From: Hominimerdicola alba 8
GTDB taxonomy: Bacteria > Bacillota > Clostridia > Oscillospirales > Ruminococcaceae
Length of the DNA: 64,000 bases
Assembly: GCF_000178155.2 (NCBI RefSeq)
Contig: NZ_ADKM02000075.1
Location: 1-64,000 of the forward strand
Reading direction: 5' to 3'
Shown here: positions 53,386 through 63,528 of the stretch, piece after piece
Position numbering within the stretch: position 1 is the stretch's first letter
Layout: each line of letters opens with the position of its first letter
Translations under genes and position numbers: made by a program
Notes under the pieces: generated by a model
The model's input: the letters and a program-made list of their open reading frames with translations, nothing else
Told to the model about the DNA's origin: nothing
The model's database searches: none

Positions 53386-54234
53386 ATGGAAAAAATACTT
53401 CTCGATATGCACACACACAGCAGTCATTCCCCCGATGCTGATGACAGCGCTTCGGCTATGTGCGAAAAAGCTGCCGAACTGGGTATGAAGGCTTATGCGC
53501 TGACCGATCACTGCGATGTTAACTTCTGGGAGGAAGCACCGTCACCGGAAACTATTGATGCCATGATGTACGGCGCGGGCAGGTATGCACTTGCGAGCAT
53601 AGCAGAGCAGACCGAACTGCGTGAGCGCTTTGCGGAAAAGTTCGACTTGATCGTGGGTATCGAACTCGGTCAGCCGATGCAGAACATAGAAAAAGCAGAA
53701 CTGATCGCAAATGACCCTCGCCTTGACTTCATCATCGGTTCGCATCACATGAATGCAGGTGTCGATGATTTCTATTATCTTGATTACAGCAAGATGTCAG
53801 CCGAAGAAATAGACCATCTTCTGTGTGACTGCTTTGAGCAGACTTTAGAAATGTGTCAGTGGGGCAAATTCGATGTGCTGGGGCATCTGACATATTCGCT
53901 GAGGTACATCTGCGGCGAATACGGCATAGATGTCAGCCTTGAAAAGTACGAAGAGGTCATAAGAGAGATCTTCGGCACGCTTATTTCAAAGGGGAAGGGC
54001 ATTGAGATTAACACATCGGGTCTCCGCCAGAAATACGGGCAGACTTTCCCGACTTTTGAATTGGTGAAACTCTATCGTCAGCTGGGCGGCGAGATACTTA
54101 CCATCGGTTCGGATGCGCATCGCACTGCCGATCTCGGCAAAGGCATCGCGGAGGGTATCGCGCTTGCGAAAGCGGCAGGTTTTGACAGGGTGACATACTT
54201 CAAAAAACATGAGCCGCATTTCTTAAAGCTGTGA
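53386..54234 (+). CDS. PHP-domain histidinol-phosphatase
   Basis: 282 residues of the HisK/HisJ PHP family. Metal ligands are visible in DMHTHSSHSPD, LTDHCD, GIELGQ, GSHHM, GHLTY and GSDAHR. The likely reaction is dephosphorylation of histidinol phosphate; other phosphoester substrates are possible because no histidine genes are adjacent. Start behind AAAGGTG. Its last 12 bases overlap the convergent end of the sigG 3' segment. Confidence 0.87.
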   Translation: MEKILLDMHTHSSHSPDADDSASAMCEKAAELGMKAYALTDHCDVNFWEEAPSPETIDAMMYGAGRYALASIAEQTELRERFAEKFDLIVGIELGQPMQNIEKAELIANDPRLDFIIGSHHMNAGVDDFYYLDYSKMSAEEIDHLLCDCFEQTLEMCQWGKFDVLGHLTYSLRYICGEYGIDVSLEKYEEVIREIFGTLISKGKGIEINTSGLRQKYGQTFPTFELVKLYRQLGGEILTIGSDAHRTADLGKGIAEGIALAKAAGFDRVTYFKKHEPHFLKL

Positions 54235-54711
54235 TTTGATCTTGTCGAGTGCGTTTTTTTCAAGGCGGCTGACCTGTGCCTGCGATATGCCTATCTCTTT
54301 TGCGACCTCCATTTGAGTGTGTCCCTTGTAAAACCGCAGGAACAAGATGTTCTTTTCACGGTCTTTGAGGGTCTTTAACGCTTCTTTCAGGTTAAGTTCT
54401 TCAAGCCAGCTTTTGTCATCGTTGCTGTCACAGATCTGGTCAACGATGTACAACGCATCACCGCCCTCAGTGTAGACGGGTTCGTATATCGATACAGGGT
54501 CGGTTATTGACTCCAAAGCGGTTACGATATCGGCACGCTTTTCACCTGTCAGTTCGGCTATCTCGTCTATGCTCGGTTCACGCTGATGCTTTGCTATAAA
54601 ACTTTCCTTTGCCTGCATAGCTTTGTAAGCAAGGTCGCGCATCGAACGGCTCACCCTGATGGGGCGGAAATCTCTCATATAGCGCTTTATTTCTCCCAAT
54701 ATCATTGGCAC
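54223..54711 (-). CDS. sigG: SigG 3' segment (codons 97-256 of the interrupted sigG)
   Basis: C-terminal part of the forespore sigma factor. From ATG 54705 it encodes 160 residues starting MILGEIKRYMRD, i.e. the second half of region 2.3, then region 2.4 (RPIRVSRSMRDLAYKA), region 3, and region 4 ending in HTQMEVAKEIGISQAQVSRLEK. Without the N-terminal segment it lacks core-binding region 2.2 and has no ribosome binding site of its own. The sequence before 54705 on this strand belongs to the attachment site. Recombination across the TTGGCACAGCGT repeats (54705-54716 and 63181-63192) would fuse it in frame to the 5' segment. No internal stop or frameshift: selection appears to maintain it. Confidence 0.95.
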   Translation of the reverse strand: MPMILGEIKRYMRDFRPIRVSRSMRDLAYKAMQAKESFIAKHQREPSIDEIAELTGEKRADIVTALESITDPVSIYEPVYTEGGDALYIVDQICDSNDDKSWLEELNLKEALKTLKDREKNILFLRFYKGHTQMEVAKEIGISQAQVSRLEKNALDKIKSQL

Positions 54712-54730
54712 AGCGTTGTGCAGTCGAAAA
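54690..54730 (+). repeat. Left attachment site of the sigG intervening element (hybrid att)
   Basis: The core repeat TTGGCACAGCGT is at 54705-54716, with the likely central dinucleotide GG at 54707-54708. Outside it lies the chromosomal half TTTCTCCCAA (54690-54699). Inside it lies the element half, TGTG then CAGTCGAAAA (54721-54730), the mirror image of TTTTCGACTG at the other end. The alignment of the flanks to the right end, CCCAAT-N4-TTGGCACAGCGT in both, extends the similarity to 18 of 22 bp. Confidence 0.92.
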
Positions 54731-54735
54731 AGCGG

Positions 54736-54764
54736 CGGCGATCATTAGGATCGCCGTTTTTTTG
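54736..54764 (+). terminator. Terminator just inside the left end of the element
   Basis: CGGCGATC (54736-54743) pairs with GATCGCCG (54749-54756), followed by seven T. It would stop plus-strand transcripts coming from the chromosome, insulating the cargo operon; in the circle it would stop transcripts leaving the recombinase gene. Confidence 0.85.
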
Positions 54765-54820
54765 TTATATATTGCGAATATGTACAATAGACTGTGTGTA
54801 ATTTTATATATATTGACATG

Positions 54821-54849
54821 TTGACAAAAACGCATATTAGTGCTATAAT
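54821..54849 (+). promoter_or_regulatory. Promoter of the NAD salvage operon in the element
   Basis: TTGACA (54821-54826), 17-bp spacer, TATAAT (54844-54849): full vegetative consensus, so the cargo is probably expressed in growing cells. Confidence 0.85.
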
Positions 54850-54915
54850 GATAACAACAAAGAGATAATAACTAAAAGTTACAAAGAAAACAAAACTTGA
54901 AAGGAAGGTCTTACT

Positions 54916-55464
54916 ATGAAAATGTTGGTAGCTATTGATCTGCAAAAGGATTTCACAACAGGTGTTCTCGGAAACGCTGAATGCGATAAGGCGGCTGACA
55001 AGGCGGCTGAAAGGATAGCGGCATTCCGCAGAGAAACTCCCGATACCCCTGTGATATTCACACTTGATACCCATACTGAGGATTACATGAATACTCAGGA
55101 GGGAAAGAATCTTCCTGTTGTACACTGTGTTCGCGGCACTGATGGCTGGAAGCTGGACGAGCGCATCGAAGCGGTCAGGGCTGAGGGTGATATAATGGTC
55201 GAGAAGCCTGTATTCGGTTCGGCTGAACTGCCCGCAGTCATCAGAAAAGCGGCAGGCGGCAAAGATATTGAAGAGATAGAGTTCATCGGTGTCTGCACAG
55301 ATATATGCGTTATCTCCAACGCGATGATAGTAAAGGCTGCTTTCCCCGAAGTACCCATTGTTATAAACAGCGAATGCTGTGCAGGCGTAACACCGCAGTC
55401 GCACGAAAATGCACTCAGCGCGATGGCTGTCTGCCAGATGAAAATAGAAAGGAATGAGGCATAA
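54916..55464 (+). CDS. pncA: Nicotinamidase-like cysteine hydrolase
   Basis: 182 residues of the isochorismatase/nicotinamidase superfamily. The catalytic triad is visible: Asp8 (AIDLQKDF), Lys97 (VEKPVFGS) and Cys131 (CTDICV). Metal ligands Asp51 and His53 lie in DTHTEDY, with a further His70. The expected reaction is nicotinamide to nicotinate plus ammonia. First gene of a three-gene operon; its stop overlaps the start of the next gene (TAATG). The neighbours make an NAD role likely, though nicotinamide would also be the substrate of the third gene. Confidence 0.85.
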   Translation: MKMLVAIDLQKDFTTGVLGNAECDKAADKAAERIAAFRRETPDTPVIFTLDTHTEDYMNTQEGKNLPVVHCVRGTDGWKLDERIEAVRAEGDIMVEKPVFGSAELPAVIRKAAGGKDIEEIEFIGVCTDICVISNAMIVKAAFPEVPIVINSECCAGVTPQSHENALSAMAVCQMKIERNEA

Positions 55465-56279
55465 TGCTCAGCTATAAGATAGACGGCGGAGAATTTATCA
55501 AGCCGCAGTTCGACAATTACCCCGATGGTACCATGAAGATAGACGTTGCGCAGGCTGACAAATGCGAAAAGGTCGAAATTCGATGGCTTTACGAGAACGA
55601 AACTGAGCAGATGCAGCTTTTCTTTATCGCATCTAATCTGAAAGAACGTTTTCCAAAAGCCGAAATGACGCTTTTCATGCCCTATCTGCCCAACGCAAGA
55701 ATGGACAGAGTTCACAGCGATACAGAGGTGTTCACGCTGAAATATTTCTGCCGCTTTATAAATGCCATCGGCTTTGACAAGGTGACTGTGCTGGACGTTC
55801 ATTCAAGTGTTGGCGCGGCACTGCTTGACAGGTGCGAGAACCTGTCCCCTGCGCCGTATATCGGAAAGGCTTTGGAAGCCGCCGGCTTTGACCCCGATAA
55901 CGACTATCTTTTCTTCCCCGATGAGGGTGCTATGAAGCGCTATTCTTCGATGTTCACGGTAAAGCATGCAGGTTTCGGCATAAAGAAGCGTGACTGGTCA
56001 ACAGGCAAGATACTGGGTCTTGATGTTGACGGCGATGATCCCGCAGGCAGGAATATCTTTATAATAGATGATATCTGTGCTTACGGCGGAACTGTTTTCT
56101 ACTCGGCACAAAAGCTGAAAGAACTCGGCTGCAAGGATATAAACGTTTATTTCAGCCATTGTGAAAATTCAATTGAAAAAGGCAAGCTGTTCGGCTGTGG
56201 GCTGATAAAGAATATCTACACCACAAACTCCATCTGCACACTGGCAGAAAACGACATACTTAAGATAATGAAGCTGTAA
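55464..56279 (+). CDS. Ribose-phosphate pyrophosphokinase-like protein
   Basis: 271 residues, shorter than the roughly 315 of housekeeping Prs. The two-domain phosphoribosyltransferase fold is recognisable: YLPNARMDRVHSDTEVFTLKYF (the PYARQDR-type ATP loop region), DVHSS (catalytic/metal), and the PRPP loop IFIIDDICAYGGT. It should make PRPP from ribose 5-phosphate and ATP. Phage genomes often pair a short Prs like this with a nicotinamide phosphoribosyltransferase, which consumes PRPP. Here the pair is adjacent (16-bp gap), suggesting a phage-type NAD salvage module. Confidence 0.88.
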   Translation: MLSYKIDGGEFIKPQFDNYPDGTMKIDVAQADKCEKVEIRWLYENETEQMQLFFIASNLKERFPKAEMTLFMPYLPNARMDRVHSDTEVFTLKYFCRFINAIGFDKVTVLDVHSSVGAALLDRCENLSPAPYIGKALEAAGFDPDNDYLFFPDEGAMKRYSSMFTVKHAGFGIKKRDWSTGKILGLDVDGDDPAGRNIFIIDDICAYGGTVFYSAQKLKELGCKDINVYFSHCENSIEKGKLFGCGLIKNIYTTNSICTLAENDILKIMKL

Positions 56280-56295
56280 GAAAGGAAGATACACC

Positions 56296-57816
56296 ATGAA
56301 AGGCATAAATGCTGCACTGATGTGCGACTTTTACAAGATAGTCCACAGAGATATGATAAACCGGAAGATGACTAAGTCGATGTCTTACTATACTCCGCGA
56401 ATGAGCCGTGTAAAGCGTTGGGATAAGGTGGTCATGTTCGGGCTTCAGATGTTCTGCAAGACCTGGCTTATCGACTACTTCAACGATAATTTCTTTGCAG
56501 TGCCCGAAGAGGAGATAGTTGCCGATTACAAGCGCGTGCTTGACAATTCTTTCGGCAAGGGCATCTACAACACTTCTTCCATTGTTGAACTTCACAGACT
56601 GGGCTACCTGCCGCTGGAGATAATAGCACTGCCTGAGGGCACTCTTGTACCTGTACATGTCCCGATGTTCGGCATAACCAACACCCACCCTGATTTCGCA
56701 TGGCTTCCGCAGGCGCTTGAAAGCCTTATCTCTGCTGAGATGTGGTACCCGCAGATAACAGCAACAGTCGGCAAGACCTACCGCGATATAGTCAACAAGT
56801 ATTACGACCTGACCTGCGATGACAACATATCCCGCGCTAAGGCACTGGGTTCGTTCGATTTCAGGGGCGACCAGGGACTTGATGCGGCACTTAAAGCGGC
56901 GGCAGGCTGGTGCATGTCTTTTGAGAATACTGCTACCGTTCCCGCGATACCGTATCTTGAAAAGATGTTCGGTGCAGACTGTGAGAAAGAGTCTGTTGCA
57001 TACGGCGCGGTCAGCACAGAACATTTTGTGATGTGCTCGAACTATGCAGTTGACGGCGATGAGGAAACTTTCCTCAGGAAGATGCTCAGGGAACTTTATC
57101 CGAACACCAGCTTTTCGGCAGTACTTGACTCCTACGATTACTGGAATGTCATCGACAATATCCTGCCAAAGCTGCACGATGACATCATGGCGCACAACGG
57201 CTGTATGCTGATGCGCGGCGATTCGGGCGACTGCGTTGAAGTTGTCACAAAGACAGTCTTCAAGCTGTGGGAACAGTTCGGCGGAACAGTGAACAGCAAG
57301 GGCTACAAGGTGCTTGACCCTCACGTTAAAGCCATTTACGGCGACAGCATAACAGTTCAGCGCTGTGAGATGATATATGAGATACTGATGAAGAACGGTT
57401 TTGCCTGCTCGAATGTGGCGCTGGGTGTCGGTTCTTTCTCGATGCACTGCATAGAAGAGGACGATGACATCACCGTTACAACGGCAGACGGTCAGCAGAT
57501 AAAGGGTAGGGCGACTATCCTCAAGCCTTTCACGCGCGATACTTTTTCCAGCTGCATCAAGGCTTGCTATGCTGAGATAGACGGCAAAGAGTACCCCATC
57601 TTTAAAAACCCGAAAGAGGGCGGATTCAAAAAGAGCCAGAAGGGTCTGTGCTACGTTTACCGCGATGAAAACGGTGAACTTGCCTACAAGGACGGCTACG
57701 TTGGCAGCAATATCCCCGACGGCAACCTGCTTGAAACTGTCTTTAAGGACGGCAGGATAGTCAGGGAATTTACCCTCAGCGATATAAGAAACAGGCTCAA
57801 CAACAACGCTTTCTGA
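56296..57816 (+). CDS. nadV: Nicotinamide phosphoribosyltransferase (NAMPT/NadV)
   Basis: A 506-residue enzyme that makes nicotinamide mononucleotide from nicotinamide and PRPP. Family segments include LMCDFYKIVHRDM near the start, the active-site region YGAVSTEHFVMCS with the catalytic-position His, LDSYDYWNV, the phosphate loop MRGDSGDCVEV and the C-terminal LGVGSFSMH. Length matches bacterial and phage NadV (about 460-510). It uses the PRPP made by the gene before it. A strong terminator follows. A second adenylylation step to NAD must be supplied by the host (no NMN adenylyltransferase here). Confidence 0.92.
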   Translation: MKGINAALMCDFYKIVHRDMINRKMTKSMSYYTPRMSRVKRWDKVVMFGLQMFCKTWLIDYFNDNFFAVPEEEIVADYKRVLDNSFGKGIYNTSSIVELHRLGYLPLEIIALPEGTLVPVHVPMFGITNTHPDFAWLPQALESLISAEMWYPQITATVGKTYRDIVNKYYDLTCDDNISRAKALGSFDFRGDQGLDAALKAAAGWCMSFENTATVPAIPYLEKMFGADCEKESVAYGAVSTEHFVMCSNYAVDGDEETFLRKMLRELYPNTSFSAVLDSYDYWNVIDNILPKLHDDIMAHNGCMLMRGDSGDCVEVVTKTVFKLWEQFGGTVNSKGYKVLDPHVKAIYGDSITVQRCEMIYEILMKNGFACSNVALGVGSFSMHCIEEDDDITVTTADGQQIKGRATILKPFTRDTFSSCIKACYAEIDGKEYPIFKNPKEGGFKKSQKGLCYVYRDENGELAYKDGYVGSNIPDGNLLETVFKDGRIVREFTLSDIRNRLNNNAF

Positions 57817-57821
57817 ATAAC

Positions 57822-57855
57822 AAAACGGCGGTCTTTGCGGACCGCCGTTTTGCTG
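57822..57855. terminator. Bidirectional terminator after nadV
   Basis: AAAACGGCGGTC (57822-57833) pairs with GACCGCCGTTTT (57840-57851) with a 6-nt loop. It separates the convergent nadV operon and MFS gene. Confidence 0.85.
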
Positions 57856-57900
57856 TATATGTTTGATGCACGCTGTTAAAATAATTTCGTGCATCTGCGC

Positions 57901-59067
57901 TTATGAGATCTCTTTTGACTTCTTTACCGTGAATTTCAGCACATAAAGCAGCAGGCAGAACATCACTGCGCTTATCGGCAGCACGACTATTGCCTTGCCG
58001 TATCCCGCTTTTTCTACCAGTCCACCGAAGAATGCGTTGAAGCCGATGTCGAAGAATGTTGCAATGCTTAATACCATGCCTGTTGCAGTGCCGGCTTCGG
58101 CAGGGTCGTAAAATTTGCCTATCAGCATGACAAGCATCGGGTAAATTATCGAAAATGCCACTCCCGATGCGCCCACCAGCAGCATACCGCTTTTGCCCAG
58201 CGCGATGCCTGTTGTGTAAAGTCCTGCGCCTGCCGCTGACCATATCAGCAGGCTTCTGAAAATGCCTATCCTGTCGATAAGCGGTGCGAATACCAGCCGC
58301 CCGACGGTTATCCCGCCGAAGAAAAGAGAAAGGTAGAATGCCGATATCTGCACCGTGAAACCGAGATATTCGCTGCCGTAAGATGTCAGCCAGTTCATAA
58401 GCCCGTGTTCTGCAACGAAGTAACCGCCGCATATCAGTATCAGCAGGGGACTTGCGGGTTCTTTAAGCATCTTAAAATATCCGCCGCCGCTGCTTTCAGG
58501 CTTTTCGGGGTCGGGCAGTTTCAGCGTCACCAGAAGTGCCAGACATATCAGTGCCGCTGTAAGCAGTATGGCGTTGGCGATGTGCCAGTATCTCAGCTTA
58601 TCGGCAAATCGTCCGCCGACATTCTGTGAGAAGGTTATGCCTGCCCCTTGCAGAAAGTTGAAAATGCTCACCAGCATCGCAGGCGATGCAAAAAGCAGGG
58701 GAGTGATGATGTTGACCGATGTGGATATCATAGTCGAGCCGCCCATCGAGAATATCATGGCTATCAGCAGAATGTAGTAATTCTCGGTGAAAACGTAGGT
58801 CGCCAGTGCCGCAGCCCAAAGCAGCAGCACCCCGCCGATGAACCTCTTGCGCGGCATTCTGTCAGAGAGGTATCCGCCCACTGACAGAAACAGCAGATTG
58901 CCCACGTAGCTTATCATTATTATCCTGCCTGCCTGCGGTTCTGTCAGCGAAAATGAACTGCGCAGCTGCGGCAGAAATACGCCCCTCAGCGAGTCTGATG
59001 CCGCAGTTATGGTCATAATAAGCCCGCAGAACAGCACCGCAGTTATTTTTGAGTTTTTCTTTTCCAT
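57901..59067 (-). CDS. MFS transporter, FucP-like
   Basis: A 388-residue twelve-segment membrane protein. The loop between segments 2 and 3 has GGYLSDRMPRKRF, the MFS signature A motif. The N-terminal part (SLTEPQAGRIIMISYVG) resembles sugar/proton symporters of the FucP group. Thirteen base pairs downstream of the GH2 gene on the same strand, so both form one operon. Probable role: uptake of manno-oligosaccharides or the sugars released by that enzyme. Substrate not determinable from sequence. Confidence 0.85.
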   Translation of the reverse strand: MEKKNSKITAVLFCGLIMTITAASDSLRGVFLPQLRSSFSLTEPQAGRIIMISYVGNLLFLSVGGYLSDRMPRKRFIGGVLLLWAAALATYVFTENYYILLIAMIFSMGGSTMISTSVNIITPLLFASPAMLVSIFNFLQGAGITFSQNVGGRFADKLRYWHIANAILLTAALICLALLVTLKLPDPEKPESSGGGYFKMLKEPASPLLILICGGYFVAEHGLMNWLTSYGSEYLGFTVQISAFYLSLFFGGITVGRLVFAPLIDRIGIFRSLLIWSAAGAGLYTTGIALGKSGMLLVGASGVAFSIIYPMLVMLIGKFYDPAEAGTATGMVLSIATFFDIGFNAFFGGLVEKAGYGKAIVVLPISAVMFCLLLYVLKFTVKKSKEIS

Positions 59068-59080
59068 CAGCTGCCACCTG

Positions 59081-61528
59081 TCAGTAGTTTTGTATTTGCA
59101 GCTGTGATCTCAGCTGTTCGGCAGTCATGTTTTCGGGCAGCTGTGACTTATCTGCTGTTATGCTGACTTTCTCACTGCCGTGAATATCGAACCAGTTATC
59201 TGAAAAAATGCAGTCATAGTCTTTCAGTGACAGGCAGACGCTCTTAGCGTAATTGTCAGATGTCAGTCCTATTTCAAAGATGTCGCCTCTGTCATGTACT
59301 TCTGCATTTATCTTGCTGGGAAGGAAGATAAATTCCTTTGGTCTGACGAACAGTGTCGTGCCGCCGCTTATGACTTCGCCGTTCTTTATCAGCTTGTATT
59401 CGAGGTATTTTGTTCGTCTGTCCTCGCGTTCTGCAAGTTCGGCAGAGTAGTCTGTCATGCACATTTTCTTTGCTGACATCGCTTTGATGATGCCCCTGCA
59501 TTCGCCCTTGCAGATGATACTGCCGTCATTCCCGCGCAGATTTTCAATTATAGTAAGTTCTTCATCGTTCAGCGTATCATTGGTGACATATAGCGCGGGC
59601 TTTGCAGGTTCGCTGTCATCACAGCTGAGGAGTATCGGCGCATGGAATTTCCTTGCGTAATAGTGCAGGGCTTTCCATCGCCCGAAATAGTCGATACTCG
59701 ACCATGAGATGACAGGATTTGAGTCGTTTACCTGCCAGTAAGCCGAACCCATACAGCGACCTCTTGCGCGGCGCATATGTTCAACATTTGAGCGTATGCA
59801 GTCAGCCTGAACTATCTGCGAGCAGTATATCAGCCGCCTGAAATCGTATGGGTAGTTGACCATCTGTGCCAGATAGTACATTACTTTTTCGTTGCCCTGT
59901 GTACATTTCTGGTGCGCCTGCATGACATTTCCGCATAAGTCCAGGTCACCCTTGCTCTCGTCTGCAAAATACAGGCAGGTCTTTATGTCGGGCAGACTTT
60001 CAAAACCGTATTCCGAGCAGAAGCGGTAGTGGTACTGTCTGAAAGCCTCAATGGGCTTGAAATTGTGCCATACGTCCCAGTAATGCTTGTCGCCTGCTTG
60101 GGCGGAGTCGGGATCGGTACCGCCGCCGCCCGATGATGGTGAGGACGGCCAGTAGAAGGTTTCGGGGTCAAGTTCACTGAGCATAGAGGGTATGATGTCC
60201 TCGAAAAGCCGCAGATAGTCGGCTTTGCACTGCTTGTCATCAGCCCAGCCCCAGTATCTCCATGCTGATTCTATCTCGTTGTTGCCGCACCACATGCCGA
60301 GAGAAGCGTGATTTCTCAGCCTGAGGATATTGTCTTTGAACTCAGCGCGTACAGTACTTTCAAACTCAGGTGTCAGCAGGTAAGCCGAACATGCGAACAT
60401 GAAGTCCTGCCAGATGATAAAGCCGTTCTCATCGCACCAGTCGTAGAAATATTCATCGGGATAATATCCGCCGCCCCATACTCTTATGAAATTATAGTTG
60501 GCAGCCTTGCAGTCATCCAGCAGTTTAACGGTACGTTCTTTTGTACAGCGGGTAACTATCTGGTCTTCGGGGATATAGTTTGCACCCATAGCGAATATCC
60601 TGACACCGTTGTTTATAAAGCAGAACTCCTTGCCCCATTCATCTTTTTCCTGTGATATGGTCAGCGTGCGCAGACCTATACGCTTCGTTACGCTGTCAAA
60701 GATATGTTCGCCGCAGTACATCTCAACTGTACAGGTGTAGAGCGGCTGTTCGCCCAGACCTCTGACCCACCATAGTTTTGGGTCATCTATCACGACCTCA
60801 GCTTTGCCCTCCTCGATCGGAAAAGTCTGTGAGATGCCGTCGGGGGAGGTGACAGTAAGCCTTGCCGATATCTTTTCCGGCGGGTCGGTTTCCAATATGT
60901 CCATATCAGCTGTACAGCAGAGGGTAACTTTGCCGCCCTCATGCTTCTGGGTGAAATAAATGCTGTTTATCCTGCCCTTGTCAAAAAAGCAGAGCGAAAC
61001 GTTACGCCATATGCCCATATCAGGCAGTTTTGGACCCCAGTCCCAGCCGAACATGCAGTGTGCTTTGCGCAGATGCGGATAGCCTGCCATTGAATGTTCA
61101 ACGCCGATAAGCGGGCGTTCTTTCTGCTTCTGACGGATATACTCGTTTGGCGAAAACAGTTTTACCGTCAGAATATTGCCTTTTTCTTTCAGTTTTCCGT
61201 TGGCATCGTATTCCCATATGCGGTGCATGTTGTCGGTCTTGCCCAGCAGTTCACCGTTAAGGCAGACTTCTGAAAGCGTGTCGATGCCGTCAAAGCGAAG
61301 TATCTTTCTGCCGCAGTCAAGCAGCTGGCTGTCAACATCGAAAGTTTTTTCAAATGTGCAGCCGTTGTCACAGATGTCTGTGGATATATATTCGTTCTCA
61401 CGGTAATATGGGTCGGGGATAACTTTATTTTCGATAAGTGTTTTGTATAATGAGCATGGTACATCGGCGGTATAGGTCTTTTCTCCGCTCTTCAGCGACC
61501 AGCTTTTATTTAGATCAAGTCTGTACAT
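59081..61528 (-). CDS. Glycoside hydrolase family 2 beta-mannosidase
   Basis: 815 residues from ATG 61528 (AAAGGAAG upstream); no signal peptide, so intracellular. The N-terminal jelly-roll (LNKSWSLKSG, DPYYRENEY) is typical of beta-mannosidases of GH2. The acid/base Glu lies in GMWCGNNEIESAWRYWGW and the nucleophile Glu in RFCSEYGFESLPD. It would release mannose from manno-oligosaccharides. The first gene of a two-gene operon with the MFS transporter inside the sigG element; the GH113 mannanase at 34.6 kb could supply its substrate. Confidence 0.93.
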   Translation of the reverse strand: MYRLDLNKSWSLKSGEKTYTADVPCSLYKTLIENKVIPDPYYRENEYISTDICDNGCTFEKTFDVDSQLLDCGRKILRFDGIDTLSEVCLNGELLGKTDNMHRIWEYDANGKLKEKGNILTVKLFSPNEYIRQKQKERPLIGVEHSMAGYPHLRKAHCMFGWDWGPKLPDMGIWRNVSLCFFDKGRINSIYFTQKHEGGKVTLCCTADMDILETDPPEKISARLTVTSPDGISQTFPIEEGKAEVVIDDPKLWWVRGLGEQPLYTCTVEMYCGEHIFDSVTKRIGLRTLTISQEKDEWGKEFCFINNGVRIFAMGANYIPEDQIVTRCTKERTVKLLDDCKAANYNFIRVWGGGYYPDEYFYDWCDENGFIIWQDFMFACSAYLLTPEFESTVRAEFKDNILRLRNHASLGMWCGNNEIESAWRYWGWADDKQCKADYLRLFEDIIPSMLSELDPETFYWPSSPSSGGGGTDPDSAQAGDKHYWDVWHNFKPIEAFRQYHYRFCSEYGFESLPDIKTCLYFADESKGDLDLCGNVMQAHQKCTQGNEKVMYYLAQMVNYPYDFRRLIYCSQIVQADCIRSNVEHMRRARGRCMGSAYWQVNDSNPVISWSSIDYFGRWKALHYYARKFHAPILLSCDDSEPAKPALYVTNDTLNDEELTIIENLRGNDGSIICKGECRGIIKAMSAKKMCMTDYSAELAEREDRRTKYLEYKLIKNGEVISGGTTLFVRPKEFIFLPSKINAEVHDRGDIFEIGLTSDNYAKSVCLSLKDYDCIFSDNWFDIHGSEKVSITADKSQLPENMTAEQLRSQLQIQNY

Positions 61529-61668
61529 ATTCAACTTCCTTTCGGCTGATACTTTTTAGATATTATATCACTCAAAAACACTGTCGTCAATAGATGTATA
61601 CGATTGCAATTCGTTAAATTTCTGATTATTTTTTGTATATCTGCCAATAATTTTTCTGAGGTGATAAC

Positions 61669-61800
61669 ATGTTAAGAATAAACAGAACAGTCGGCAGGGA
61701 CGGCAAGCCTATGGCAGAGGGAAGACCCGCTGAAAGCGAAGCGCTTCGCCTGCTTTTAAATGAGATATCAGCACGTATCATAAGTACAGATGAAGAATAA
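61669..61800 (+). CDS. 43-residue ORF coupled to the recombinase gene, candidate directionality factor
   Basis: A small protein beginning MLRINRTVGRDGKP and ending in ISTDEE, with GAGGTG 5 nt before its ATG. Basic N-terminal half, amphipathic helical C-terminal half (ALRLLLNEISARII). Its stop codon lies within 10 bp of the recombinase start and overlaps the longer start option, so both are co-translated. Large serine recombinases need a small partner for excision (for example SprB for SprA of SPbeta, 58 residues). Position and size fit such a partner; sequence similarity was not evident. Confidence 0.55.
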   Translation: MLRINRTVGRDGKPMAEGRPAESEALRLLLNEISARIISTDEE

Positions 61801-61810
61801 GGACAAGCGC

Positions 61811-63160
61811 ATGACAGCGCTCTATATAAGGGTATCGACCGATGCGCAGTTTGAAGAGGGTTATTCTGTTGATGCACAAAAGGAAAAGCTGGCACAGTTC
61901 TGCAAGCTGAAAGATATCGAAAACTATGGATTTTACATCGACGGCGGCTGGTCTGGAAGCAACATCGAGCGGCCTGAGATAAAACGCATGATAGATGATA
62001 TACTCGCAGACAGGATATCCGCAGTGGTGGTATATAAGCTGGACAGACTTTCACGTTCGCAGAAAGACACAATATTTCTGCTGGAAGATGTGTTCATACC
62101 CCATAACTGCGCCTTTATATCGCTGAACGAGAATTTCGATACCTCGACTCCGTACGGTAAGGCTATGATAGGAATACTGTCAGTGTTTGCACAGCTTGAA
62201 AGGGAAAACATACGTGAACGTACCCGCATGGGCATGTATGAAAGAGTACGTTCGGGACTGTGGATGGGCGGCGGGCGTGTGCCTTTCGGGTATGACTATG
62301 ACCGTGAGAAAAACAGGCTCGTACCAAATGAAAAGGCTGAACAGGTCAGGCAGATATATGACCTTTATCTGCAAGGCTATTCCACCACACAGCTTGCCGC
62401 CATGTTCGATGTTTCGGGCGACCAGCATATCTCTGCCATTCTTGACAGGATGACCTATCTCGGAAAGATAAGTTTTCGCGGCGAGGTCATCGAGGGCACG
62501 CACGAGCCGATAATTGATGAAGTCACATGGCTGAGGGTCCGGGAAGAGCGGAAGAAGCGCTCGAAAAACAGCGGCGGGCAGTCGGCATACCTTTTGACGG
62601 GACTGCTGGTGTGCGGAAGGTGCGGCGCTAAGATGCGATATCAGAAATGGGGCAGGGGACTTAAGATATACTGCTACTCTCAGCAAAAGAGCAAGCCCTC
62701 GCTGGTAAAAGACCCGAACTGTGACAATATCAGATATGATGCCCGCGAGGTCGAAGAACTGGTGGTGAAAGATGTCTTTGAAAAGACAAAAAATATTTCT
62801 GCCGATAAGAACGGCGCTTCTGTGAATGTGACTGCAAGGCAGGTCTTAAAACAAAAATATGATGCCGCCGCCCGCAAGATAAAGCGCCTGTATGACCTGT
62901 ATGCCAATGACGAGAACGAACTTCTGCTTGAAACCATAGAGGAGAACAAAAAACAACTCGCAGAGATAGCCGAAGCCATCAAAAGGGAGGAGAAAACAAA
63001 TTCAGCGGCACGCGAACTTGAGTACAGACGAAAAACACTCTATGACTTGTGCGGTCTGTGGGACGCAATGACGCTTACCGAACGTCAGCGTGCGCTGCGC
63101 ACCTGCATCGACAGGATAATACTTGACGGTGAAGATATAGATATAGTATACTCTCTGTGA
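61811..63160 (+). CDS. Large serine recombinase of the sigG element
   Basis: 449 residues from ATG 61811 (AAGGA 7 nt upstream; an ATG at 61790 is in frame but lacks a site). The resolvase domain has nucleophile Ser9 in YIRVSTDAQ and the LDRLSRSQKD arginine segment. A Recombinase domain (about 155-260), a zinc ribbon (CGRCGAKM...CYS...NCDN) and a C-terminal coiled coil (about 345-400) complete the large serine-integrase architecture, as in SpoIVCA and phage integrases. The stop codon ends exactly one base before the right attP arm (63161). Its last 159 bp lie antisense to the read-through tail of the sigG 5' segment. Confidence 0.94.
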   Translation: MTALYIRVSTDAQFEEGYSVDAQKEKLAQFCKLKDIENYGFYIDGGWSGSNIERPEIKRMIDDILADRISAVVVYKLDRLSRSQKDTIFLLEDVFIPHNCAFISLNENFDTSTPYGKAMIGILSVFAQLERENIRERTRMGMYERVRSGLWMGGGRVPFGYDYDREKNRLVPNEKAEQVRQIYDLYLQGYSTTQLAAMFDVSGDQHISAILDRMTYLGKISFRGEVIEGTHEPIIDEVTWLRVREERKKRSKNSGGQSAYLLTGLLVCGRCGAKMRYQKWGRGLKIYCYSQQKSKPSLVKDPNCDNIRYDAREVEELVVKDVFEKTKNISADKNGASVNVTARQVLKQKYDAAARKIKRLYDLYANDENELLLETIEENKKQLAEIAEAIKREEKTNSAARELEYRRKTLYDLCGLWDAMTLTERQRALRTCIDRIILDGEDIDIVYSL

Positions 63161-63469
63161 TTTTCGACTGCCCAATGCTGTTGGCACAGCGTAGGTAGAA
63201 AACTTAACATTCAGTCCAACATCAAAATTATCGATGGCTTTTATCAGCCCTACTACACCGACCTGAAAAAGGTCATCGGGACTTTCCTTGCCCGAAGAGA
63301 ACCGCTGGAGAACGCTCAGTACGAGCCGTAGGTTGCCTTTGATAAGTTCCTCTCTTGCATTTTTGTCGCCGCATGCTGTCCGCCTGAGAAGTTCCTGTTT
63401 TTCGTTTTCGGTCAGTACCCTGAGCGTACTCGTATTGACACCGCTTATCTCTACTTTGTTATACTGCAT
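63002..63469 (-). CDS. sigG: SigG 5' segment (codons 1-96) with read-through tail
   Basis: N-terminal part of the forespore sigma factor; start 63469 behind GGAGTG. It encodes YNKVEISGVNTSTL (typical SigG opening), region 2.1 (GNLRLVLSVLQRF) and region 2.2 (DDLFQVGVVGLIKAIDNFD), and breaks after STYAVP in region 2.3. From codon 97 the frame runs into the element and adds 59 unrelated residues before a stop at 63002. The unexcised protein would keep the core-binding surface but no promoter recognition (2.4, 4). Rejoining at TTGGCACAGCGT restores the next SigG residue, Met97. Confidence 0.95.
   Translation of the reverse strand: MQYNKVEISGVNTSTLRVLTENEKQELLRRTACGDKNAREELIKGNLRLVLSVLQRFSSGKESPDDLFQVGVVGLIKAIDNFDVGLNVKFSTYAVPTALGSRKSQRVYYIYIFTVKYYPVDAGAQRTLTFGKRHCVPQTAQVIECFSSVLKFACR
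63161..63201 (+). repeat. Right attachment site of the sigG intervening element (hybrid att)
   Basis: Element half TTTTCGACTG (63161-63170), then CCCAATGCTG, then the core TTGGCACAGCGT (63181-63192) with GG at 63183-63184, then the chromosomal half TAGGTAGAAA (63192-63201). The chromosomal halves of both ends, TTTCTCCCAA and TAGGTAGAAA, are inverted repeats matching at 8 of 10 positions, as expected of an attB. Confidence 0.92.
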
Positions 63470-63496: not shown

Positions 63497-63528
63497 GAAT
63501 ATTTTTCCCGTTTTTCGGGAAAATATTC
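63497..63528. promoter_or_regulatory. Hairpin upstream of sigG
   Basis: GAATATTTTTCCCG (63497-63510) pairs with CGGGAAAATATTC (63516-63528), one bulged base. It lies 28 bp upstream of the sigG start. No T-run follows on either strand; a transcript-stabilising or regulatory element is possible. No clear SigF or SigG promoter was identified. Confidence 0.45.

Follow-up and report, generated by a model that had tools for sequence, protein, structure and literature searches.

An integrase-bearing, skin-like element splits sigG in a Ruminococcus clade, at a codon cut in many other Clostridia

Introduction

The sporulation sigma gene sigK of Bacillus subtilis and Clostridioides difficile is split by skin, an element which carries a large serine recombinase, and the gene is rejoined through a short core. 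A recombinase of the same kind, the A118 integrase, belongs to the Listeria prophage that reversibly interrupts comK, a gene of competence and not of sporulation, and Tn5397-like conjugative elements also carry a large serine recombinase. Sigma-F is the first sigma factor of the forespore, and sigma-G, required late in sporulation, is a forespore sigma factor as well. According to PMC6957869, almost all known intervening elements of sporulation lie in mother-cell genes, the reason given being that the mother cell is doomed whereas the element persists in the genome of the spore; the same paper places skr, the recombination directionality factor (RDF) gene of B. subtilis skin, across the start of the recombinase gene, and mentions excision from comK. 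PMC5595907 describes gin, a non-phage element of 28.6 kb that lies within gerE in Bacillus cereus ATCC10987 and has a serine recombinase, three recombinases in all, and an additional directionality factor (GirX); gerE acts in the mother cell.

A sequence-only reading of a 64-kb stretch of DNA (the window) from a Ruminococcus assembly of a gut or rumen bacterium had proposed that a skin-like element splits sigG, as a switch on late forespore gene expression, and had known of no other case in that gene. The description as skin-like holds for the anatomy but not for the cargo, which consists of NAD-salvage genes, a transporter and a glycosidase, without phage genes. Searches of the open PMC literature turned up no description of an intervening element for either sigG or sigF. 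The case is not unique, the same codon being split in many Clostridia.

Results

Anatomy of the split gene

An interruption of 8,476 bp, measured as the start-to-start distance of the repeats, separates Pro96 from Met97 of sigG, whose halves are co-oriented and in the correct order (Table 1). The proposed break and its coordinates were borne out, and its assignment to region 2.3 is compatible with the Sigma70_r2 match, whose end falls on residue 95. Joining the halves in silico with one repeat copy gave 771 nt, that is 256 amino acids and a stop codon, in agreement with the predicted exact, in-frame restoration of an intact SigG, as in skin-like elements. The 12-bp core repeat TTGGCACAGCGT had five matches in the window, of which the two at the breakpoints are exact and the remaining three have two mismatches each. 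Random sampling of 100-bp stretches also gave a shared word of at least 12 bp, in 2 of 2000 draws, so that the core repeat alone is modest evidence; the case for an element rests on the inverted-repeat arms and on comparative data rather than on this repeat.

Searching the 4.05-Mb assembly (98.78% complete) with a sigG model gave nine matches, two of them the split halves. The other seven all score below the C half and, to judge from score and length, are other sigma factors, and no second sigG, named beforehand as evidence against the proposal, was found in this search. Phage structural or replication genes were not found among the element's six large ORFs (Pfam), nor transfer genes among the window's element genes, and the element does not classify as an integrative conjugative element.

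Table 1. Features of the split sigG locus in the 64-kb window.
Feature	Position	Strand	Basis or remark
Flank: PHP-domain gene	53386..54234	(+)	adjoins sigG 3' end also in element-free G023
sigG 3' half, Met97 to stop	54223..54705	(-)	Sigma70_r3 and r4 matches
Core repeat copy 1 (attR)	54705..54716		exact TTGGCACAGCGT match
Element-side attP arm at C half, TTTTTCGACTGCACAACGCTGTGCCA	54706..54731	(-)	arm comparison
Cargo: isochorismatase/nicotinamidase-like protein	54916..55464	(+)	PF00857; nicotinamidase by context only
Cargo: ribose-phosphate pyrophosphokinase-like protein	55464..56279	(+)	TIGR01251, just below cut-off
Cargo: nicotinate/nicotinamide phosphoribosyltransferase	56296..57816	(+)	NF006629 over cut-off
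Cargo: MFS transporter	57901..59067	(-)	domain match
Cargo: GH2 enzyme of mannosidase type, listed with a TTG start	59081..61534	(-)	domain match
Divergent housekeeping-type promoter candidate for cargo, TTGACG-N17-TATAAT	61562..61590	(-)	by eye
Sigma-F-like promoter candidate, recombinase operon, GATTA-N14-GCCAATAATT	61624..61652	(+)	motif
43-aa ORF overlapping recombinase start, candidate RDF	61669..61800	(+)	position, recurrence
Large serine recombinase, 456 aa	61790..63160	(+)	domain matches, integrase-chain matches
Element-side attP arm at N half, ACAGCATTGGGCAGTCGAAAA	63161..63181	(-)	inverted repeat of C-half arm
Core repeat copy 2 (attL)	63181..63192		exact TTGGCACAGCGT match
sigG 5' half, residues 1-96	63182..63469	(-)	Sigma70_r2 match, rejoined frame
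Sigma-F-like promoter candidate, sigG, GAATA-N14-GGGAAAAATA	63500..63528	(-)	motif

Attachment sites

The N-half attP arm begins immediately after the recombinase stop codon. A common arm pattern, TTTC-N2-C ... TCAT-NCC, was obtained from 41 distinct N-side stretches, which include one from another sigma gene (L117) and one from sigF (L137), and from 59 distinct C-side stretches, CC standing at the centre of all 59 C-side att sites. The attB of an integrase is shorter than its attP, with outer motifs expected nearer the core. Of 39 intact sigG loci, most have similar outer motifs which, at either side, are shifted inwards by 4 nt; the key columns of the attB motif reach 62-100% there, although conserved residues are encoded by the same bases. 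The arms are symmetrical round a central dinucleotide and longer in attP than in attB, as in integrase att sites. The attB probably corresponds to the conserved part of sigG that codes for STYAVP before and MI.GEI after the break; the two ends of the element make up an attP with inverted-repeat arms. Judged from the sequence, the element ends, the att-like sites and the integrase frame are intact.

Recombinase and promoter candidates

As first noticed, an intact large serine recombinase, open throughout, lies at one end of the element. Resolvase (PF00239), Recombinase (PF07508) and Zn-ribbon (PF13408) domains were all detected over gathering scores and, at 456 aa, the protein has the three domains and the length (about 450-600 aa) of large serine integrases. 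It matches the TP901-1 and A118 integrase chains and is about 37% identical to A118-type integrases. This large serine integrase of the A118/TP901-1-like kind is the likely cause of the split. Phage record MT839977, considered as a phage carrier, was rejected since its sequence looks like that of a host contig which contains the recombinase beside a C half of sigG; the best other match was 42.5% identical among the 15 phage matches listed, and at least 40.3% identical among the 15 plasmid matches listed. The 43-aa ORF gave no Pfam match; in 50 of the 79 unique loci compared, a small ORF directly precedes the recombinase gene. Placed like skr in skin, it is a candidate recombination directionality factor.

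Sigma-F-like promoter candidates were judged against the sigma-F consensus. A sigma-F-like motif was found 44-46 nt 5' of the small ORF in 6/6 Ruminococcus elements, and none of 5000 single-base shuffles reached 5/6. The strict pattern occurs at three places in the window, two of which are the recombinase operon and sigG, and is absent from all 28 regions upstream of recombinases that are located elsewhere than at sigG; it was drawn from these same sequences and its statistics are therefore after the fact. With a B. subtilis-style sigma-F pattern, 6 of 74 other recombinase upstream regions were positive against a shuffle mean of 0.23. The loose pattern precedes sigG at 10 of 14 loci, yet in just three of seven split genomes (L041, L042, L043 and L166 being without it). 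A sigma-G-type promoter for the recombinase was rejected, as the SASP upstream regions differ by eye.

Carriers and non-carriers in the Ruminococcus clade

Within the genus, sigG is split in all seven recombinase carriers and intact in all 20 scorable non-carriers (2 of 29 genomes unscored); the C-terminal-only sigG matches of G051 and G037 lie at contig ends and are therefore uninformative on splitting. In each of the seven the element occupies the same syntenic place and encloses the same NAD operon. Cultured carriers include R. albus KH2T6 and AR67. Decay in sister strains would have refuted the proposal, but the sigG halves are undecayed in six sister genomes, and the recombinase is full length in five, a contig end cutting the sixth (G012). 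The uninterrupted sigG sought among relatives was found, seamless and without element, in G023 and G015 of the same clade. In the NAD-operon tree G023 is nested among carriers (98/97); the species and sigG trees by themselves do not reject a single carrier clade. Two relatives keep the NAD operon alone, at another place.

The pN/pS of the sigG halves among carriers was 0.12, compared with 0.16 for ylmC, 0.23 for php and 0.21 and 0.25 for intact sigG, all rough values because synonymous sites are near saturation. The split is common to genomes with a synonymous difference near 0.66 per site, the frames being open, and the halves look to be under purifying selection.

The sporulation gene check covered three families. 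GPR was present in 7/7 split genomes (one partial) and SASP in 6/7, and SpoIIR (Pfam) was absent in 29/29 genomes of the genus and therefore does not separate split from intact. In Galperin 2012 (PMC3533761), R. albus 7 is listed as non-spore-forming and without ten sporulation genes. A dead insertion in a decaying sporulation gene would agree with the absence of such genes from R. albus 7 or from the genus as a whole, but the divergence at which the split is shared, its open frames and pN/pS, and the two clade members with seamless sigG make this highly improbable.

Related elements in other Clostridia

Interruption of sigG is not a one-off: of 80 loci that have a related recombinase, 59 contain one half of sigG with the break at the identical codon, in many Clostridia. 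Element sizes vary widely. An element of about 90 kb in sigG of [Ruminococcus] faecis carries T4SS-transfer-like, SSB and DnaC-like genes and is 92% identical (3.5-kb and 3.7-kb ends compared) to an element in sigF of host G114, in which ParA and ParB were found; by locus, a T4SS-transfer-like gene was found in L142 and a ParA in L137. These transfer, partition and replication-type genes recall Tn5397-like elements, from which the window's element differs by its small size, the lack of any transfer gene seen and its fixed syntenic place across the clade. The element could be plain mobile DNA whose attachment site is a conserved gene dispensable for growth, excised for transfer and not for development, in hosts that do not sporulate or are losing sporulation. 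The [Ruminococcus] faecis element with its near-copy, the differing sizes, the missing SpoIIR and the reportedly non-sporogenous R. albus 7 are compatible with this. It is nevertheless unlikely, given that no transfer gene was seen in the Ruminococcus-clade element, that its place is constant, that both sigG halves are constrained, that the promoter is sigma-F-like, and that the GPR and SASP genes are kept.

In several genomes the sigG halves lie far apart or on separate contigs. Agathobaculum and Hominifimenecus are among the hosts whose halves seem to be distant or inverted. In Butyricicoccaceae and others the distance is >100 kb to >600 kb (contig positions), and several lineages with distant halves have the recombinase on yet another contig. 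Such arrangements, and the constraint on both halves, would suit separate polypeptides acting together like SigO/RsoA, the two-part sigma factor of B. subtilis. Against this, no Shine-Dalgarno-like sequence was seen by eye just 5' of Met97 in the window's C half, the N half continues into differing element sequence or a stop, and att arms, needless for a two-part protein, are kept across the break; we consider it very unlikely.

In G127 the halves face opposite ways at a distance of about 26 kb; their arms match, as would those of an invertible switch. Phase variation, in which excision would precede polar division, or befall vegetative cells at random, and give a heritable on/off ability to sporulate, could explain this locus and make G015 and G023 heritable 'on' states of their clade. 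All seven carriers of the genus were however assembled 'off', though consensus assemblies hide minorities, and the sigma-F-like promoter recurs in every element compared, so that we hold phase variation to be distinctly unlikely.

Search for excised forms

The attP of an excised circle was not found in 50 recombinase-bearing genomes, a set without Ruminococcus of the window's clade, whose arms the pattern does not fit; the three pattern matches were all attR. Nine pattern matches were obtained in viral contigs, with no recombinase on the stretches examined. Split and intact forms of one sequence were not found within any one genome. G102 was considered as a mixed state, with an intact sigG and a split C half, and rejected: the copies are just 80% identical over 496 bp and therefore not from one strain.

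Discussion

The best explanation of this locus, to which we give a probability of about two in three, is a skin-like element that would be excised in the forespore to make sigma-G. A large serine integrase would have inserted an integrative element into the sigG attB. Promoter resemblance suggests that sigma-F would transcribe the recombinase operon, with the candidate directionality factor and the integrase, along with sigG. The element would then be cut out in the forespore and sigG rejoined in frame, sigma-G taking over; the cell would thus still make SigG through precise excision. With the forespore as germ line, the excised circle would have to be lost or to re-integrate after germination, and loss may have happened in the two relatives that keep the NAD operon alone. 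The search of assemblies for a circular form found none, so that the switch itself is something we infer.

Compared with skin, the target is the forespore gene sigG instead of sigK, and no phage genes were seen. The skin recombinase promoter is sigma-E-dependent in B. subtilis or, according to PMC5025042, constitutive in C. difficile, whereas a sigma-F-like one is suggested here. The usual, though not strictly defining, mother-cell target is absent, and a forespore target raises a germline puzzle because almost all known elements sit in mother-cell genes. That many Clostridia keep a forespore sigma gene split and rejoin it under sigma-F in the future spore, as a programmed and reversible germline rearrangement, is a tentative and rather improbable generalization. 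If true, sigma-G in lineages with distant halves would need inversion of the segment, or else a forespore in which the chromosome is divided into two circles that fuse again on germination.

Both sigG and sigF, the latter interrupted in one host, function in the cell destined to become the spore. If excision restores sigma-G there, the element would have to survive in the germ line via re-integration, maintenance of the circle or selection for its cargo, the NAD-salvage genes. The loci also offer small proteins that are candidates for a family of directionality factors, as well as an integrase family with one predictable target. If the preferred reading is true, sigG looks broken in the genomes of many gut Clostridia, and their ability to form spores may be misjudged.

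The sigG gene is split by a recombinase-bearing element

The sequence-only reading had proposed that sigG is split between Pro96 and Met97 by an 8,476-bp element, and this was upheld: both halves were located on the same strand, with the common repeat TTGGCACAGCGT present at each break. The claim that in-frame rejoining is possible stands as well, the halves and one repeat copy giving 771 nt that encode a 256-aa SigG. A second sigG, which would have spoken against this reading, was searched for in the 4.05-Mb assembly, where the window makes up bases 1-64000 of contig C62, and was not found. Between the halves lie an isochorismatase-family gene, a PRPP-synthetase-like gene and a nicotinate/nicotinamide phosphoribosyltransferase gene (together, the NAD operon), an MFS transporter, a GH2 enzyme, a 43-aa ORF and a 456-aa large serine recombinase.

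Coordinates of the split sigma factor genes (L, fetched locus; G, genome)
Feature	Sequence	Position	Strand
sigG N half	window	63469-63182	-
sigG C half	window	54705-54223	-
sigF half, G114	L137	3904-4140	+
sigF half, G114	L138	1161-1643	-

The recombinase has TP901-1 and A118 integrase chains among its matches, and the two ends of the element are mutual inverted repeats. Across the fetched loci, the distinct arms, 41 on the N side (including L117, which is not sigG, and L137, which is sigF) and 59 on the C side, have in common TTTC, a C at the third base after it, an inner block resembling TCAT and a CC centre, the inner bases differing in Ruminococcus and some other loci. In large serine integrases, attP half-sites are longer than attB half-sites. 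Intact sigG (39 loci) has similar outer motifs, shifted four bases towards the core on each side and agreeing at 62-100% in key columns, with the caveat for an attB motif that these bases double as codons for conserved residues.

Recombinase and split sigG in the genus

Named relatives place the window in Ruminococcus. Among 29 genomes of the genus, the recombinase was found in seven, all with a split sigG, and the 20 genomes without it each have one contiguous sigG match (Fisher p = 1.1e-6, uncorrected for kinship); G019, with a partial sigG match, and G020, whose matches are no stronger than those to be had from other sigma factors, were left unscored. Remoter serine recombinases, 30-40% identical, are carried by the intact-sigG relatives G049, G065, G083, G089 and G094.

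The order php / sigG-C / pncA-prs-nampt ... recombinase / sigG-N / ylmC / rpsB / tsf is common to the seven carriers. The element lies on a single contig in five of them (window, L039, L040, L041 and L043), with mfs in 5/5 and gh2 in 3/5, and is spread over two contigs in G005 and G012, the G012 recombinase being cut by the contig end. Mean pN/pS over 21 carrier pairs comes to 0.120 and 0.119 for the two halves of sigG; the recombinase gives 0.199, ylmC 0.158 and php 0.231; for intact sigG it is 0.209 and 0.251 (21 pairs from seven intact genomes), sigG pS being near saturation (0.66-0.81).

Uninterrupted sigG, which the earlier reading had suggested seeking in relatives, was found in G023 and G015 with the php neighbourhood kept. 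The G023 locus holds php, intact sigG, ylmC, rpsB and tsf without the element, and its NAD operon is ~1 Mb from sigG; this operon (L159:6480-9783) comes straight after two sequences that by eye look tRNA-like. In G015 the NAD operon lies between php and sigG. The phosphoribosyltransferase occurs in 9/29 genomes (E up to 1e-60), namely the seven carriers, G023 and G015. In the species tree these nine form a clade (100/99) with several open inner forks; the tree covers 11 of the 14 genomes with fetched regions, three having been dropped because they lacked genes, and none of the remaining 15 in the genus. G023 is nested among carriers in the NAD-operon tree (98/97) and grouped with three carriers in the sigG tree (90/98), the position of G015 is not settled by the trees, and the species and sigG trees alone are compatible with a single carrier clade. 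The simplest history would be a single ancient insertion, later lost precisely in two lineages that rescued the NAD operon; there may instead have been independent gains.

Distribution and mobility of recombinase relatives

A class-wide draw revealed the recombinase in 10/391 genomes, the window's own counted (E up to 1e-95). From a recombinase-query scan of genome contigs, 80/115 loci were kept; a sigG half (at least 55% identity for N, at least 48% for C) is present in 59, a sigF half in one, another sigma gene only in one, and 19 gave no match. When both halves were surveyed in 36 genomes from 37 loci (L111 left out; tables scored by hand), 26 had both sigG halves present and apart, many on different contigs, and seven a single half; G102 has intact sigG plus an extra half, G114 has sigG intact and sigF split, and in G110 sigG was looked for and absent. 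No sigG half lies near 14 relatives (L069, L070, L073, L077, L078, L080, L083, L085, L088, L099, L107, L116, L117, L118), most of which still have a small ORF upstream; sigG is still in two pieces in the five hosts checked (L080, L083, L099, L116, L117). The smallest element seen, 2.55 kb within sigG of a Defluviitaleaceae MAG (L057:8835-11389), contains the recombinase, a small ORF and a further ORF whose resemblance to a homing-endonuclease repeat protein is weak and falls short of the Pfam cut-off.

Contig sizes set a lower limit on the inter-half segment of about 675 kb (G121), 303 kb (G130), 216 kb (G128) and 139 kb (G126), and they place each of the two halves and the recombinase on a contig of its own in G122, G123, G134 and G135; assembly errors may lie behind distant, inverted or scattered halves. 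On a 3.2-Mb contig (G124:C2; L140, L141), the order of halves is such that recombination would free a 112-kb circle bearing sigG. In G127 (C149:59113-85858; L135, L136) the halves are inverted, ~26 kb apart and with matching att arms, so that site-specific inversion would rejoin sigG; the recombinase found is on a separate contig.

In G114 (Lachnospiraceae STE_209), sigF is split at the same motif as sigG elsewhere, beside a recombinase relative. The best equivalog match of the C half is sigF, and spoIIAB (over cut-off) directly precedes the N half. L142 ([Ruminococcus] faecis sigG) and L137 (G114 sigF) have the same 26-base N-side arm, the elements are 92% identical over two compared ends (3.5 and 3.7 kb), and their recombinases are sisters (100/100) in a tree where placement on the N or C side of sigG switches several times. 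The [Ruminococcus] faecis element, ~90 kb from the half positions, encodes a T4SS-transfer-like protein, SSB and a DnaC/DnaI-like ATPase; ParA and ParB were found in the G114 copy.

Possible control elements upstream of the recombinase

A small ORF ends within ~60 nt of the recombinase start at 57/87 loci (50/79 without duplicates); its called length ranges from 34 to 104 aa and is mostly 40-66. A motif like R-Y-(I/L/V)-N-G is present in 34/50 and missing in the five Ruminococcus ones, and a few of the others look unrelated; the window 43-aa ORF, a candidate recombination directionality factor (RDF), is 8-46% identical to 20 other aligned small ORFs. By comparison, skr, which encodes the RDF of B. 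subtilis skin, overlaps the start of the recombinase gene there (PMC6957869).

The sigma-F-like pattern GATTA-N14/15-G(G/C)C(A/C)ATAAT(A/T), with varying spacer, lies 44-46 nt upstream of the small ORF in 6/6 Ruminococcus elements, the seventh carrier, G012, being left out for its missing recombinase 5' end. At least 5/6 was reached in 0/5000 single-base shuffles, a figure that is only descriptive because the pattern was derived from the same related sequences. It occurs at three places in the window, including the recombinase operon and sigG; a looser form is upstream of sigG at 10/14 loci, in 7/7 intact but only 3/7 split ones. Outside Ruminococcus, a B. subtilis-style pattern was found in 6/74 recombinase upstream regions (shuffle mean 0.23, maximum 3), in none of the 74 on the reverse strand, and in 0/28 regions upstream of recombinases that lie apart from sigG or reach a contig end. 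SASP genes are expected sigma-G targets, and by eye their upstream pattern differs from that of the recombinase operon.

Sporulation context

GPR is present in 7/7 split genomes (partial in G018) and SASP in 6/7; SpoIIR was searched across the genus and found in 0/29 genomes. Galperin 2012 counted R. albus 7 among Spo0A-bearing non-spore-formers (PMC3533761). The known role of sigma-G and the promoter resemblance suggest that excision, if it takes place, may fall in the forespore. Intervening elements are, by the rule given in PMC6957869, located in mother-cell genes; if the forespore reading is true, this rule would gain an exception, and the element would have to go through the germ line.
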